From Anabaena sp. UHCC 0187 (GTDB lineage: Bacteria; Cyanobacteriota; Cyanobacteriia; Cyanobacteriales; Nostocaceae): a stretch of DNA of 36,723 nt. The stretch is from the NCBI RefSeq assembly GCF_009712035.1, contig NZ_VILB01000019.1:1-36723 (forward strand), written 5' to 3'. Positions 33,889 to 36,723 of this stretch are shown here, piece by piece. Below the pieces are notes generated by a model that did no database searches, was not told where the DNA came from, and was given only the letters and a program-made list of their open reading frames with translations. Each line of letters begins with the position of its first letter. Position 1 is the first letter of the stretch. The translations under genes were made by a program, and so were the position numbers.

Positions 33889-35622
33889 CTAGAAGCTGAA
33901 AGTAGTTCTGAGTGTACCGATAAAGGCATCACTACTGTTAGTAGCTTGTCCAGGAGATGTAACCCAGATAACTCCAGGAGTTACAGAGATATTTTCGGAA
34001 ACGCGATACTTATAGAAGCCTTCAACTTGGTATGGTGTTTCGCCAGCACCAGCACCTAGTGAATAGGGTTGAGCGCCACCAAAGATACCCAAGACGTTAC
34101 CTTTTCTACCAAAGTCAGGTAAAGCTAAACCAACACCATAGCTCCAAGCTTCTTTATCATCATTAGCACCAAAGCCTGTAACATCGTGGTAGGAAACGAA
34201 ACCACTTACAGACAGTCTTTCGCTAGGCTTGAAGGCTGCGGAAATACCGTAGGAGTTACTGGAAGAGGCGCTGGCTGCCAGTGTTGTCCTGTCCACACCT
34301 AAACTATTAGCTTGTGAACTACCTACTAAAGCAGTACCACCATTAATTCCGGAATCAAATAAGGTGCTACCAGCTTTATGATAACCATGCACATAGGTTG
34401 CAGCTAAAGCAACGCGATTACCAACGTTAAAGTTTAACTGACCTAAAGCTGCATAGTTACCATCGAACAAGCCATTACTTGGGCTAGGATCATTAGCATT
34501 GGAAGCTAAGTAACCTAATGTGATGGAACTTGGTTTCAAGAAACTATCACCAGGTTTACCAAAAGGTACATTCAATGCAATCCCTGAACCACCACCAATC
34601 CGGTAAATGGGGTTTTCAGATGCAAAAGTTGTTAAAGCACCCTTACCACCATCGGTTTTATCAAAGAAGTAGGGGTTGTTAACAGCCGCATAATCGCTAT
34701 GTTGACCACCACTGGCTGCAAGATAAACTCTTGCAGGACCAACAGGAGCTTCATAGGTTAATTTGTCAATTCTAACGCTGTTAGCACCAGTGCTACCGAC
34801 TTCAAATGTTTGCTTACCGATTCCAGCAGCAGCAATAGAATTACCATCAGGAGGAGTATTATCTCGGAAATCAAAGCCTGTAGCATTACCAGCAGCCAGA
34901 CGGGTTGTTAACATATCCCTACCTGTAAAGCTGGTTTCCAAGCCTAGACGAACTCTGTCTTGGAATACTGCACGGTTAGCTTTACCTGTCTCATTACCAA
35001 AAGTATCAGTGACAGCAAAAATAGCTTCACCTTTTAACTTAGTAGTAGTGGAGAATTGATTTGCTTCTAATTCAGCAGTGCGAGCTTCTAAAGCATCTAC
35101 ACGTCCACGTAAAGTGGCTAATTCTGCGGAAAATTCTTCTTGCAAACGCTGTAATGTTGCTAAATCCTGTTTTGTCACCATGTCAGCCGTTGCTGTGGCG
35201 ATCAATTCGTTCACACGATCTAAACAAGAATTTAAACCAGCCGCAAATTCGTAACGGCTTAAAGCCCGATTACCGCGAAATGTGCCATTGGGATAACCTG
35301 CAATACAACCGTATCGCTCAACCAAAGACTGTAATGCTTGGAATGCCCAATCTGTAGGTTGAACATCAGAGAACTGAGAAACTGATGTTACCTGAGACAG
35401 GGAATCTTTATTTTCGTTGCTGTAGCGGTTAACTTGAGCTAAAACTTGAGCTTCTTTAGCCAATACTTCTGGCTTTTGGGAAACTTCTGTTGCAGAGGAA
35501 GTTTCTACTGATAATACTTCCTTGGTGGTAGTGGTCGCGGCTATCGCTGTTGACGATACTAACAACGCTGCTCCCAAAATTGCTGGGCTAACCACCAGGG
35601 ATTTCCACAAGATATTAGACAT
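33889..35622 (-). CDS. SLH-domain porin (iron uptake porin / OprB type)
   Basis: About 577 residues from ATG at 35622, chosen over a GTG at 35640 because AGGAGAAAAGGA lies directly before the ATG. A signal peptide (about residues 8-28, ending in STAIA) is followed by a Ser/Thr/Glu-rich linker, an SLH domain (FSDVQPTDWAFQALQSLVERYGCIAGYPNG...), a coiled coil (about 160-190, TLRGRVDALEARTAELEAN), and a beta-barrel of the OprB-like type ending in aromatic Phe (RTTFSF). This is the standard cyanobacterial outer membrane porin, often annotated as iron uptake porin. It is likely strongly expressed. Confidence 0.93.
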   Translation of the reverse strand: MSNILWKSLVVSPAILGAALLVSSTAIAATTTTKEVLSVETSSATEVSQKPEVLAKEAQVLAQVNRYSNENKDSLSQVTSVSQFSDVQPTDWAFQALQSLVERYGCIAGYPNGTFRGNRALSRYEFAAGLNSCLDRVNELIATATADMVTKQDLATLQRLQEEFSAELATLRGRVDALEARTAELEANQFSTTTKLKGEAIFAVTDTFGNETGKANRAVFQDRVRLGLETSFTGRDMLTTRLAAGNATGFDFRDNTPPDGNSIAAAGIGKQTFEVGSTGANSVRIDKLTYEAPVGPARVYLAASGGQHSDYAAVNNPYFFDKTDGGKGALTTFASENPIYRIGGGSGIALNVPFGKPGDSFLKPSSITLGYLASNANDPSPSNGLFDGNYAALGQLNFNVGNRVALAATYVHGYHKAGSTLFDSGINGGTALVGSSQANSLGVDRTTLAASASSSNSYGISAAFKPSERLSVSGFVSYHDVTGFGANDDKEAWSYGVGLALPDFGRKGNVLGIFGGAQPYSLGAGAGETPYQVEGFYKYRVSENISVTPGVIWVTSPGQATNSSDAFIGTLRTTFSF

Positions 35623-36257
35623 TTTTCCTTTTCTCCTCACACCTTATATGGATAACTTGAGTTCGCTTAGGCTTATTGCTTAGAAGTGCGACATCTTGTT
35701 GAAACCTGTGTAATAGGCATGACTGCCAACTAGTTATTACAATCTTAGCTCTCACAAGAATAACAATTGATTAACTAATCGTTAAACTTCAATGCAATTA
35801 ACTTATGCAAAAACTTCTACTCATATTTTCTGATTATATTATATTCGCTTCCAATAATCAAGATAAGATTTTTCGATTAAGTGATCGTCAATTTTTCTGG
35901 TAGTATATTGTCATTTATACTAAGTAGATTTAATTGTCTTAAACTTACATCAAACTATTCTCACCAAGATTCTTAGCGAACAGGCTTTAGCATGAAAAAA
36001 CTTAGATAAGGCTTAAAAGATACTTTCAATCAAAACCTTTCTACATCATTTTTCTGGCACAAACCTATCACTGCGAATGATTCATGATTGGTGAAAAATG
36101 TTCCCCAATCATGATTTACCCGCCTAATAACTGTAATAAGATATCTAAAATAATATTTAGTGCTACTGGTCAAAAAAGTTTAAAATCTGACAATATAAGC
36201 TTTATTTCTTTCTGACTTCTTGCAAGAACTTATTAATTGTTAAATCAAAAACCATCC
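35623..36257. other. AT-rich intergenic region ahead of the porin
   Basis: No coding gene is supported. It contains the promoter region of the porin, for which I see no certain operator, and a perfect 10-pair hairpin at 36082-36114 (TCATGATTGG / CCAATCATGA, 13-base loop) without a T-run. Near 36241 the separate minus-strand transcript candidate begins to end. Confidence 0.45.
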
Positions 36258-36306
36258 TTAAAAACTATCCGCCCTGATTTAGATCAGATAATCTAAGTCA
36301 GGGCGG
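36258..36306 (-). terminator. Strong hairpin terminator of the small transcript
   Basis: On the minus strand CCGCCCTGA-C-TTAGAT, loop TATCTG, ATCTAA-A-TCAGGGCGG: 15 pairs with one C/A mismatch, followed by ATAGTTTTTAAGG. Confidence 0.8.
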
Positions 36307-36312
36307 TCTAGC

Positions 36313-36456
36313 GGGTCTTCAAGTTGCAACCAGACTGCCGGAAGGAACTCCGATGTCAAGCCTAGCTAGTTGAGCTAACTTAGTATCTCAAGAGAACTAA
36401 AGCTAACTTAGAGAACAGCCCCGGCGCACAGCCGGCTAACTGCAACTTGATGACCC
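36313..36456 (-). ncRNA. Structured RNA region, class unknown
   Basis: On the minus strand GGGTCATCAAGTTGCA (36441-36456) pairs with TGCAACTTGAAGACCC (36313-36328) over 16 positions with one mismatch, enclosing 112 bases. Inside are CCGGC/GCCGG around TGTGC, TTAGT-CTC/GAG-ACTAA, CGGA/TCCG and a direct repeat CTAAGTTAGCT. The arrangement is too regular to be chance but matches no RNA family I know. Boundaries of the transcript are predicted as about 36554 to 36258. Confidence 0.55.
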
Positions 36457-36479
36457 ATGCGTATACTACTTTCTATCAT
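36408..36479 (-). CDS. 23-codon leader-like ORF with extended Shine-Dalgarno
   Basis: ATG at 36479 opens a 23-codon frame ending TAA at 36408 (MIESSIRMGHQVAVSRLCAG plus three residues). AAGGAGGTGAT (36484-36494 on the minus strand) matches the 16S 3' end over 11 bases and places GGAGG eight bases before ATG, much stronger than any other site in this window. No family is recognised. It could be a real micropeptide, a leader peptide of an attenuator, or an accidental frame in an RNA. The first third can pair with sequences downstream of the ATG, hiding the start. Confidence 0.5.
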   Translation of the reverse strand: MIESSIRMGHQVAVSRLCAGAVL

Positions 36480-36560
36480 GGGCATCACCTCCTTATTGCC
36501 TAAACGGTCTTCGTTTCAAAAGGGGCAAAGCAAAATGCTTTGGGTTTGTAACCTAGGATT

Positions 36561-36588
36561 ACTATAACACAACTGCAAAAATTTGCAA
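36561..36588 (-). promoter_or_regulatory. Promoter of the small transcript
   Basis: On the minus strand TTGCAA (36583-36588), a 16-base spacer and TATAGT (36561-36566): close to the sigma-70 consensus. A start near 36554 would be about 75 bases before the leader ATG. Confidence 0.6.
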
Positions 36589-36613
36589 TACCTTAATCTC
36601 AATTTCTGCCATT

Positions 36614-36678: not shown

Positions 36679-36723
36679 TTAGAGAGCGTTACCGCGAGGT
36701 AGCACTTCTTCAGGGAAGACAAA
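36679..36723 (-). CDS. psbD: Photosystem II D2 protein, C-terminal end
   Basis: The minus strand from the window edge reads FVFPEEVLPRGNAL and then TAA (36679-36681), which is the conserved C-terminus of PsbD. D2 is one of the two reaction centre core proteins of photosystem II, in the thylakoid membrane. The rest of the gene lies outside the window. No psbC reading frame overlaps or follows the stop, and a terminator lies directly behind, so this is the solitary psbD copy and not the psbD-psbC operon. Confidence 0.93.
   Translation of the reverse strand, partial: FVFPEEVLPRGNAL

Follow-up and report, generated by a model that had tools for sequence, protein, structure and literature searches.

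The window, by which we mean the whole stretch of 36,723 nucleotides of contig NZ_VILB01000019.1 of Anabaena sp. UHCC 0187 that was analysed, carries a compact minus-strand unit that sits between the end of psbD and a gene for an SLH/OprB porin. The sequence elements described for this unit in a first-pass annotation were found where they had been placed, and its coordinates are correct. In the direction of transcription, the features are:

36679..36723, minus strand: 3' end of the upstream psbD gene (...LPRGNAL*), recognised by eye
36561..36588, minus strand: promoter-like site TTGCAA-16-TATAGT with extended -10 TGTGTTATAGT (9 of 12 matches, TG before the -10)
near 36554, minus strand: predicted transcription start
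36499..36507, minus strand: leader block CCGTTTAGG, common to many homologues (consensus of 162 sequences)
36484..36494, minus strand (36494-36484): extended Shine-Dalgarno AAGGAGGTGAT, an 11-mer anti-16S match
36477..36486, minus strand: 5' arm of the start-codon hairpin, GATGCCCATG, which includes the ATG at 36479-36477
36408..36479, minus strand: ORF of 23 codons, MIESSIRMGHQVAVSRLCAGAVL, stop TAA, read in the sequence
36464..36470, minus strand: AGTAGTA block, codons 4-6, found in 67 of the 70 BLAST-found loci
36449..36459, minus strand: masking segment CATGGGTCATC, codons 7-11 (closed-fold and open-fold computations, shuffle control)
36411..36456, minus strand: 5' arm of the long stem, second half of the ORF (26 pairs in four helices, to 36419)
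36313..36350, minus strand: 3' (post-stop) arm of the long stem, GAGTTCCTTCCGGCAGTCTGGTTGCAACTTGAAGACCC region (RNAalifold, pair counts)
36260..36311, minus strand: intrinsic terminator CTAGACCGCCCTGAC...GGGCGGATAG followed by TTTTT (RNAfold, RNAalifold)
33889..35640, minus strand: downstream SLH/OprB porin gene (Pfam OprB and SLH)

The ATG lies 8 nt past the GGAGG core and 4 nt past the anti-16S 11-mer, and the TTTTT ends at 36260. The masking segment has two potential partners, namely the start region or, through its GGGTC, the GACCC of the post-stop arm; the long stem has further pairs down to 36411, beyond the 26 that were counted.

The unit is real and old. Homologues were identified by BLASTN in 97 of 100 genomes drawn as relatives, its own genome counted (the misses are G028, G074 and G082), and a covariance model (R1) matches 133 of the 155 genomes of the window's class at an E-value of 0.01 or better, or 126 of the 145 genomes of good quality. 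A single match is present in 131 of these 133 genomes, among them that of the window, in which the window copy is the only one found. Two genomes have two matches: the second in G429 is weak and does not look like the RNA, and was rejected, while G443 has two strong matches (on C112 and C329, the second with E 1e-38) and thus contains the sole credible second copy in the 155 genomes. Family f34 contributes seven weak matches (E 1e-5 to 2e-3), and the match in G440 is doubtful (0.009). Good-quality genomes among the 155 in which the model finds no match are G028, G507 and most of f49/g97; G028 is a 3.8 Mb single-contig genome from the window's own family. A 4,659,019-bp genome from a deep lineage has a match with E 2e-13 and an ORF, MSIPGTSLNLRTANGRLCAGAVAL, in which RLCAGAV is retained. 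At least 117 stretches were found in a scan of named genomes, and among the matches listed 114 are labelled cyanobacterial and three Chloroflexota. Among members of the phylum outside the class, none of 48 was found by a pattern that finds 24 of 31 inside the class. No exact match to the start pattern was present on viral contigs. Many homologues lie about 200-500 nt from a contig end (e.g. G004:C44 and G013:C107), probably because the duplicated psbD breaks assemblies, which can hide the RNA in draft genomes.

The pattern that yielded loci L080-L196 fixes GGAGGTGATG, a spacer pyrimidine and AGTAGTA, and for this reason the conservation of these elements was recounted on the 70 BLAST-found loci. 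In the consensus step, 12 of the 185 loci were dropped for want of the 3' pattern (nine cyanobacterial and three Chloroflexota). The non-redundant set consists of 72 sequences, of which 69 form the rows of alignment A1 (L085, L129 and L164 were left out); L066, with a frameshifted ORF, and L069 were not matched by the start regular expression.

The first-pass annotation could recall no known cyanobacterial RNA that fits this unit. This was wrong, since the RNA matches ncl0160 / Sye_sRNA1 (PMC4734099, PMC6091082), an identity which we infer from context, ORF and distribution. In the text on ncl0160 in PMC4734099, this RNA of Synechocystis and Nostoc, first seen in Synechocystis, has 83 homologues with 89 genomes compared, and a conserved peptide, judged likely translated, encoded by an ORF of 23-25 aa with an RBS always present and with stops TAA 47, TAG 34 and TGA 2. 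Presence in 133 of 155 genomes agrees with this wide occurrence, as do ORF length (23 aa in 66 of the 70 BLAST-found loci, 24 in three, and 34 in the frameshifted L066) and stop use, which is TAA 111, TAG 69 and TGA 2 in 182 loci picked by Shine-Dalgarno and start, with some genomes counted twice. According to the relevant text of PMC6091082, no sRNA of S. elongatus UTEX 2973 was more abundant in control cultures than Sye_sRNA1, a conserved structured RNA verified by Northern blot. Of its 53 homologues, most follow a psbD or cobB gene; homologues were confirmed in Anabaena 7120, S. elongatus PCC 7942 and Synechocystis PCC 6714. A light response is reported as well, and the RNA is said to rank with the most abundant transcripts of several cyanobacteria. 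The upstream neighbours are the same here: the nearest upstream gene is psbD-like in 77 and CobB-like in 15 of 201 loci, many of which have little upstream flank. One member of each kind was checked in Pfam, the psbD-like one being Photo_RC.

The published descriptions differ from ours in several respects. ncl0160 is likewise a widely conserved cyanobacterial RNA with a short ORF and RBS, but the text on it in PMC4734099 gives no switch, covarying long stem or function, and the corresponding text of PMC6091082 describes Sye_sRNA1 as an sRNA, mentioning neither an ORF of its own nor a gated start; its main transcript is about 200 nt, compared to the roughly 295 nt predicted for the window RNA. 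Yfr6 / Downstream-peptide motif RF01704 is another cyanobacterial RNA whose ORF is short (33 aa), but the passages on it place the motif within the 5' UTR of its ORF (PMC1242208, PMC2864571), and the window has no Rfam match; Yfr6 has been compared with RNAIII (PMC1242208). A search of the whole window against Rfam (4227 families) gave no match at the gathering cut-off, the sub-threshold matches being chance-like. Identity with tmRNA was considered and rejected, as the one match of this genome to RF00023 over the cut-off is located at G000:C22. No function or switch for ncl0160 / Sye_sRNA1 was found in the texts of the open-licence literature that were searched, and text searches with Shine-Dalgarno, peptide and terminator strings gave nothing relevant. 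Term searches did not identify the RNA in the texts of PMC3610870, PMC2662882, PMC5126843, PMC6202907, PMC5386190, PMC3219970, PMC13104629 and PMC8386757, but such terms can miss it, because homologues are confirmed in the strains of PMC3219970 and PMC5386190 (PCC 7942 and PCC 6714). The RNA itself is therefore already known, and new here are the covariation of the long stem, the proposal of start gating, the kept open frame with its weak constraint on the amino acids, and the parallel in Anaerolineales.

The promoter had been called near-consensus. Its hexamers alone are not above chance (four promoter-like sites versus 3.6 in shuffles), whereas the extended -10 (TGTGnTAnnnT), 30-150 nt before the Shine-Dalgarno, is present in 48 of 71 non-redundant homologues versus 1.2% of shuffled windows. 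Likewise, the anti-16S 11-mer alone is at chance level in the genome (four places, and four for the reversed control). The 11-base site ahead of a 23-codon ORF is nevertheless present as annotated, and a match of at least 9 bases is kept in 69 of the 70 BLAST-found loci and in 71 of the 72 sequences of the non-redundant set, the pattern-found members of which have 9 by construction. The strong terminator of the annotation is drawn by both RNAfold and RNAalifold, but is missing from the list of a simple terminator scan. The base of its hairpin is visible in the 162-sequence consensus, for which sequences had been selected by a match to that base; in most loci read, the base CTAGACCGC..GCGGATAG of the hairpin (36265-36311) is unchanged, seemingly beyond the need of a plain terminator. 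The fold of the 300-nt RNA as a whole beats shuffled sequences (z -3.87, 0 of 200), while the region from 36500 to 36313, without leader and terminator, and the ORF part do not do so clearly (z -1.35, 21 of 200, and z -1.38, 16 of 200, respectively).

RNAalifold on alignment A1 draws one imperfect hairpin, in which the second half of the ORF pairs with the arm past the stop codon. The long-range stem with 36313-36328 noted earlier is thus present, and in fact exceeds what had been described, with 26 pairs counted and reaching codon 21. Double changes occur in 16 of the 26 pairs and in 151 cells, neither of which numbers was reached in any of 500 shuffles (the count of pair types was reached by five of 500); this covariation score is not a probability, since almost the same sequences had served to derive the structure and shuffling takes no account of kinship. 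Slid-column controls do preserve kinship, and here 96.7% of the cells are paired in register versus 24-56% when one arm is slid by 1-3 columns. In the 32 BLAST-found rows alone, double changes are present in 15 of the 26 pairs (75 cells). The conservation and compensatory changes in related genomes by which the annotation proposed to check its unit are both found, the latter in the long stem.

The start-codon hairpin, in which GCCCATG faces CATGGGT, has a core of seven pairs, with 463 of 483 cells paired in the 69 rows and 218 of 224 in the 32 BLAST-found rows. A double compensatory change is seen in none of its ten pairs, as initiation leaves no freedom on the AUG side and the long stem leaves none for GGGTC, and support for this predicted hairpin consists of kept pairing and thermodynamics. 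In the CCC of the spacer, ten of the 11 changes among the 70 BLAST-found loci are to U, by which pairing is retained. The pairings of GATGCCCATG with CATGGGTCATC and of the long stem are mutually exclusive, exactly as the first-pass annotation had it.

Ensemble folding was performed at equilibrium at 37 C, on RNA from 25 nt before the GGAGG and without terminator. When the RNA ends at the stop codon, the median probability that the AUG is unpaired is 0.01, compared to 0.43 when codons 7-23 are shuffled, the native value being lower in 66 of 72 sequences. Addition of half of the post-stop part leaves the median at 0.01 and addition of the whole part raises it to 0.43, whereas the value is 0.02 when this part is shuffled. 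Opening exceeds the shuffled control in 64 of 69 sequences and, after thinning to less than 65% identity, in 35 of 40. These opening folds used 69 of the 72 non-redundant sequences, three having no anchor, and so did the ensemble calculation from which the Anaerolineales values given below come. With BLAST-found loci alone, the closed state lies below its control in 30 of 31 and the open state above it in 29 of 31. In these folds both the mask and its remover are specific, since shuffling the ORF tail opens the AUG and shuffling the post-stop part keeps it closed. The opening is partial (median 0.43), and five of the 69 sequences do not open (L053, L055, L106, L126 and L129). Start gating has thus specific computed support on the closing as well as the opening side, and the earlier suggestion that the start codon is shut in one fold and open in the other is supported by conservation, compensation in the long stem and the folding controls.

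The reading frame is kept. Among 541 changed codons, no in-frame stop is found where 14.1 are expected, and in codons 10-23, which no search pattern selected, there are none versus 9.2 expected, while the two other frames have stops in excess; the inserted codons of four rows lie outside the columns used for this count. Synonymous changes over the whole ORF are barely above expectation (121 versus 105.8), with an excess in the paired half (104 versus 84.2) and none in the unpaired half (17 versus 21.6). Ser-Ser near the start is kept in deep lineages by AGT, AGC, TCC or TCT codons, and the Cys codon changes to Ser, Arg or Trp. Several lineages (L085, L149, L212-L217 and L223) have an ORF of only 17 codons through an earlier stop, and a related RNA remains; L213, L085 and L149 among the carriers of the 17-codon ORF are Thermosynechococcus-like. 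Judged from the aligned sequences, it is the reading of the frame, more than the peptide itself, that seems to count, with a weak constraint on the amino acids; the serines kept through different codons and the synonymous excess in the paired half nevertheless point to a function of the peptide.

With regard to the genomic surroundings, a recurrent one-strand order psbD - RNA - PCD - SLH/OprB porin - Rrf2 - cysK was observed in the 201 loci, the window itself being without PCD. PCD (Pterin_4a) is the first downstream ORF in 85 of the 201 loci and the porin in 42, and 119 loci have a relative of the porin close to the RNA, in almost all cases on its strand and downstream of it. In L048 the RNA is followed by cysK. 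However, the downstream gene differs between loci and is at times on the other strand; PCD begins anywhere from about 0 to 1152 nt past the approximate end of the RNA, and the window's genome has kept the RNA with its one PCD match on another contig. The post-stop arm has no complementarity signal against the start regions of the porin (61 loci, mean z -0.22) or of PCD (48 loci, mean z -0.15), and this, together with the inconstant neighbours, argues against regulation in cis and yields no target in trans. The earlier view that the unit follows psbD as a standalone element agrees with the extended -10 motif, the terminator and the absence of a constant downstream gene. Cysteine attenuation, which the nearby cysK and the Cys codon could bring to mind, was rejected, since neither the Cys codon nor the proximity of cysK is constant.

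The family, the long stem, the closing and opening folds and the kept frame were established by comparison or computation, and we propose a model that would add to them an order of folding, an entry of ribosomes and a resetting. The RNA is, in our moderately confident opinion, a self-gated and independently transcribed mini-mRNA (or an sRNA with a mini-ORF), which would admit ribosomes once it is complete. In the nascent RNA, the masking segment in codons 7-11 would pair with the spacer between Shine-Dalgarno and AUG, shutting the start codon. The post-stop arm, when finished, would capture the masking segment in the long stem, so that the start codon opens and the near-perfect Shine-Dalgarno may hold ribosomes, which then translate the ORF. 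Translation would in turn melt the long stem and let the closed hairpin re-form, and each round would thus reset the RNA. Our guess is that the output would be ribosome engagement or activity of the RNA in trans, rather than expression of a neighbouring gene. Dual-function sRNAs such as RNAIII, SgrS and SR1 combine a mini-ORF and extensive structure in one RNA, as is the case here, but no pairing to porin or PCD starts was found for the window RNA. The two-state model names the bases that would close and open the start, and could be tested by point mutants.

Several other readings have to be weighed against this self-gated RNA. The 23-aa peptide could be the product, i.e. the locus would be a conserved small protein gene in which the folds only tune the rate of translation. 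This is possible, if rather doubtful: the frame is kept over the class, with RLCAGAV even in the deep-lineage genome and Ser-Ser preserved through different codons, synonymous changes are in excess in the paired half, and the text on ncl0160 in PMC4734099 judges the peptide likely translated, but over the whole ORF the synonymous excess is slight and in the unpaired half absent, the ORF has shrunk to 17 aa in several lineages, and the Cys codon can be replaced by one for Ser, Arg or Trp. We consider it unlikely that only the long stem matters and that the start hairpin arises incidentally from sequence required on other grounds. The lack of double changes in the hairpin and the tie of GGGTC to the long stem would fit such a by-product, yet the CCC of the spacer has no other evident reason for its conservation, its changes are nearly all pairing-neutral (ten of 11 to U), shuffled ORF tails open the AUG in 66 of 72 sequences, and the RNA of Anaerolineales described below has an equivalent mask.

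A translation-gated antisense sRNA, in which ribosomes melt the stem and so free the CCTCC-like, anti-Shine-Dalgarno post-stop arm for target mRNAs, would explain the high conservation of that arm, and the sRNA-like abundance and light response in the text of PMC6091082 as well as the frequent proximity of a porin gene are in line with it; the missing complementarity to the starts of the adjacent porin and PCD genes makes it rather improbable. The logic of a riboswitch or attenuator had been among the suggestions of the first-pass annotation. A cis-acting element of this kind could serve the downstream PCD, porin or cysK, with the hairpin as a conditional terminator, and the frequency of PCD and porin as first downstream ORF, or cysK in L048, could be taken in its favour. 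This reading is very unlikely, because the downstream gene is inconstant and sometimes antisense; the variable distances to PCD, the RNA retained in a genome with PCD elsewhere, the RNA's own terminator and the lack of an Rfam riboswitch match also speak against it. In hok and aapA1, the nascent start region is hidden by a transient hairpin and the full-length RNA folds over a long range, a logic similar to that proposed here, so that a type I toxin mRNA, with its start also hidden while nascent, comes to mind. The full-length fold is inactive in these toxin mRNAs, whereas that of the window RNA is computed to open the start; moreover, the RNA is near-universal in the class and mostly single-copy, and its peptide MIESSIRMGHQVAVSRLCAGAVL is, by eye, not of the hydrophobic membrane type. 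Membership of this toxin family is therefore extremely improbable, and we regard the window RNA as lying outside it.

A parallel to the proposed self-gated RNA was found in another phylum. Three contigs of Anaerolineales (Chloroflexota) carry the start GGAGGTGATG..ATG..GATAGTAGTA with a different 3' part. The cyanobacterial start pattern is rare in Chloroflexota (one of 301 genomes). A 20-mer from this 3' part, with two mismatches allowed, is present in 40 of the 121 genomes of the order. From these, 30 loci were read (L229-L258; ten of the 40 matched genomes were left out), of which 29 are real and L246 is a chance match. The RNAs have a GGAGG Shine-Dalgarno and an ORF of 15-18 codons, mostly with AAASLL (e.g. 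L250), and their own Shine-Dalgarno is matched by a complementary segment, CATCCCTCCTC or a near variant of it. In the predicted nascent folds, all 29 pair 10-11 bases of the Shine-Dalgarno region with CATCCCTCCTC, and the post-stop arm pairs with the overlapping GCTGCGGCATC, with changes on both sides at several positions; since part of this segment had served to select the loci, only its pairing partners count as independent evidence. Ensemble folding shows no clear release of the Shine-Dalgarno by the arm (0.14 to 0.18, p 0.15), because the leader can also pair with that site. No constant neighbour was found among the loci read, five of which precede a gene for a B12-binding subunit. The Anaerolineales RNA is a standalone RNA of similar design, either homologous or convergent.

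This parallel suggests design rather than accident, and an RNA class between sRNA and mRNA that annotation overlooks. More tentatively, Cyanobacteria and Anaerolineales may share a class of standalone, ribosome-gated RNAs, whose common features would be an extended Shine-Dalgarno, an ORF of roughly 15-25 codons with an internal mask, and a post-stop arm to capture that mask. Such RNAs would engage ribosomes only as finished molecules, and reading of the ORF would matter while its peptide hardly would. If this is true, the class could act as a sensor or buffer of free ribosomes. The cyanobacterial RNA, reported as abundant, is kept in most of its class, mostly as a single copy, and the literature texts consulted assign no function to it.

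A queA gene is located just upstream of the RNA in the three Thermosynechococcus-like loci L213, L085 and L149 (Pfam Queuosine_synth for L085) and, by eye, also in five Anaerolineales loci (L234-L237 and L240). This neighbourhood in both groups reflects either common ancestry or chance.
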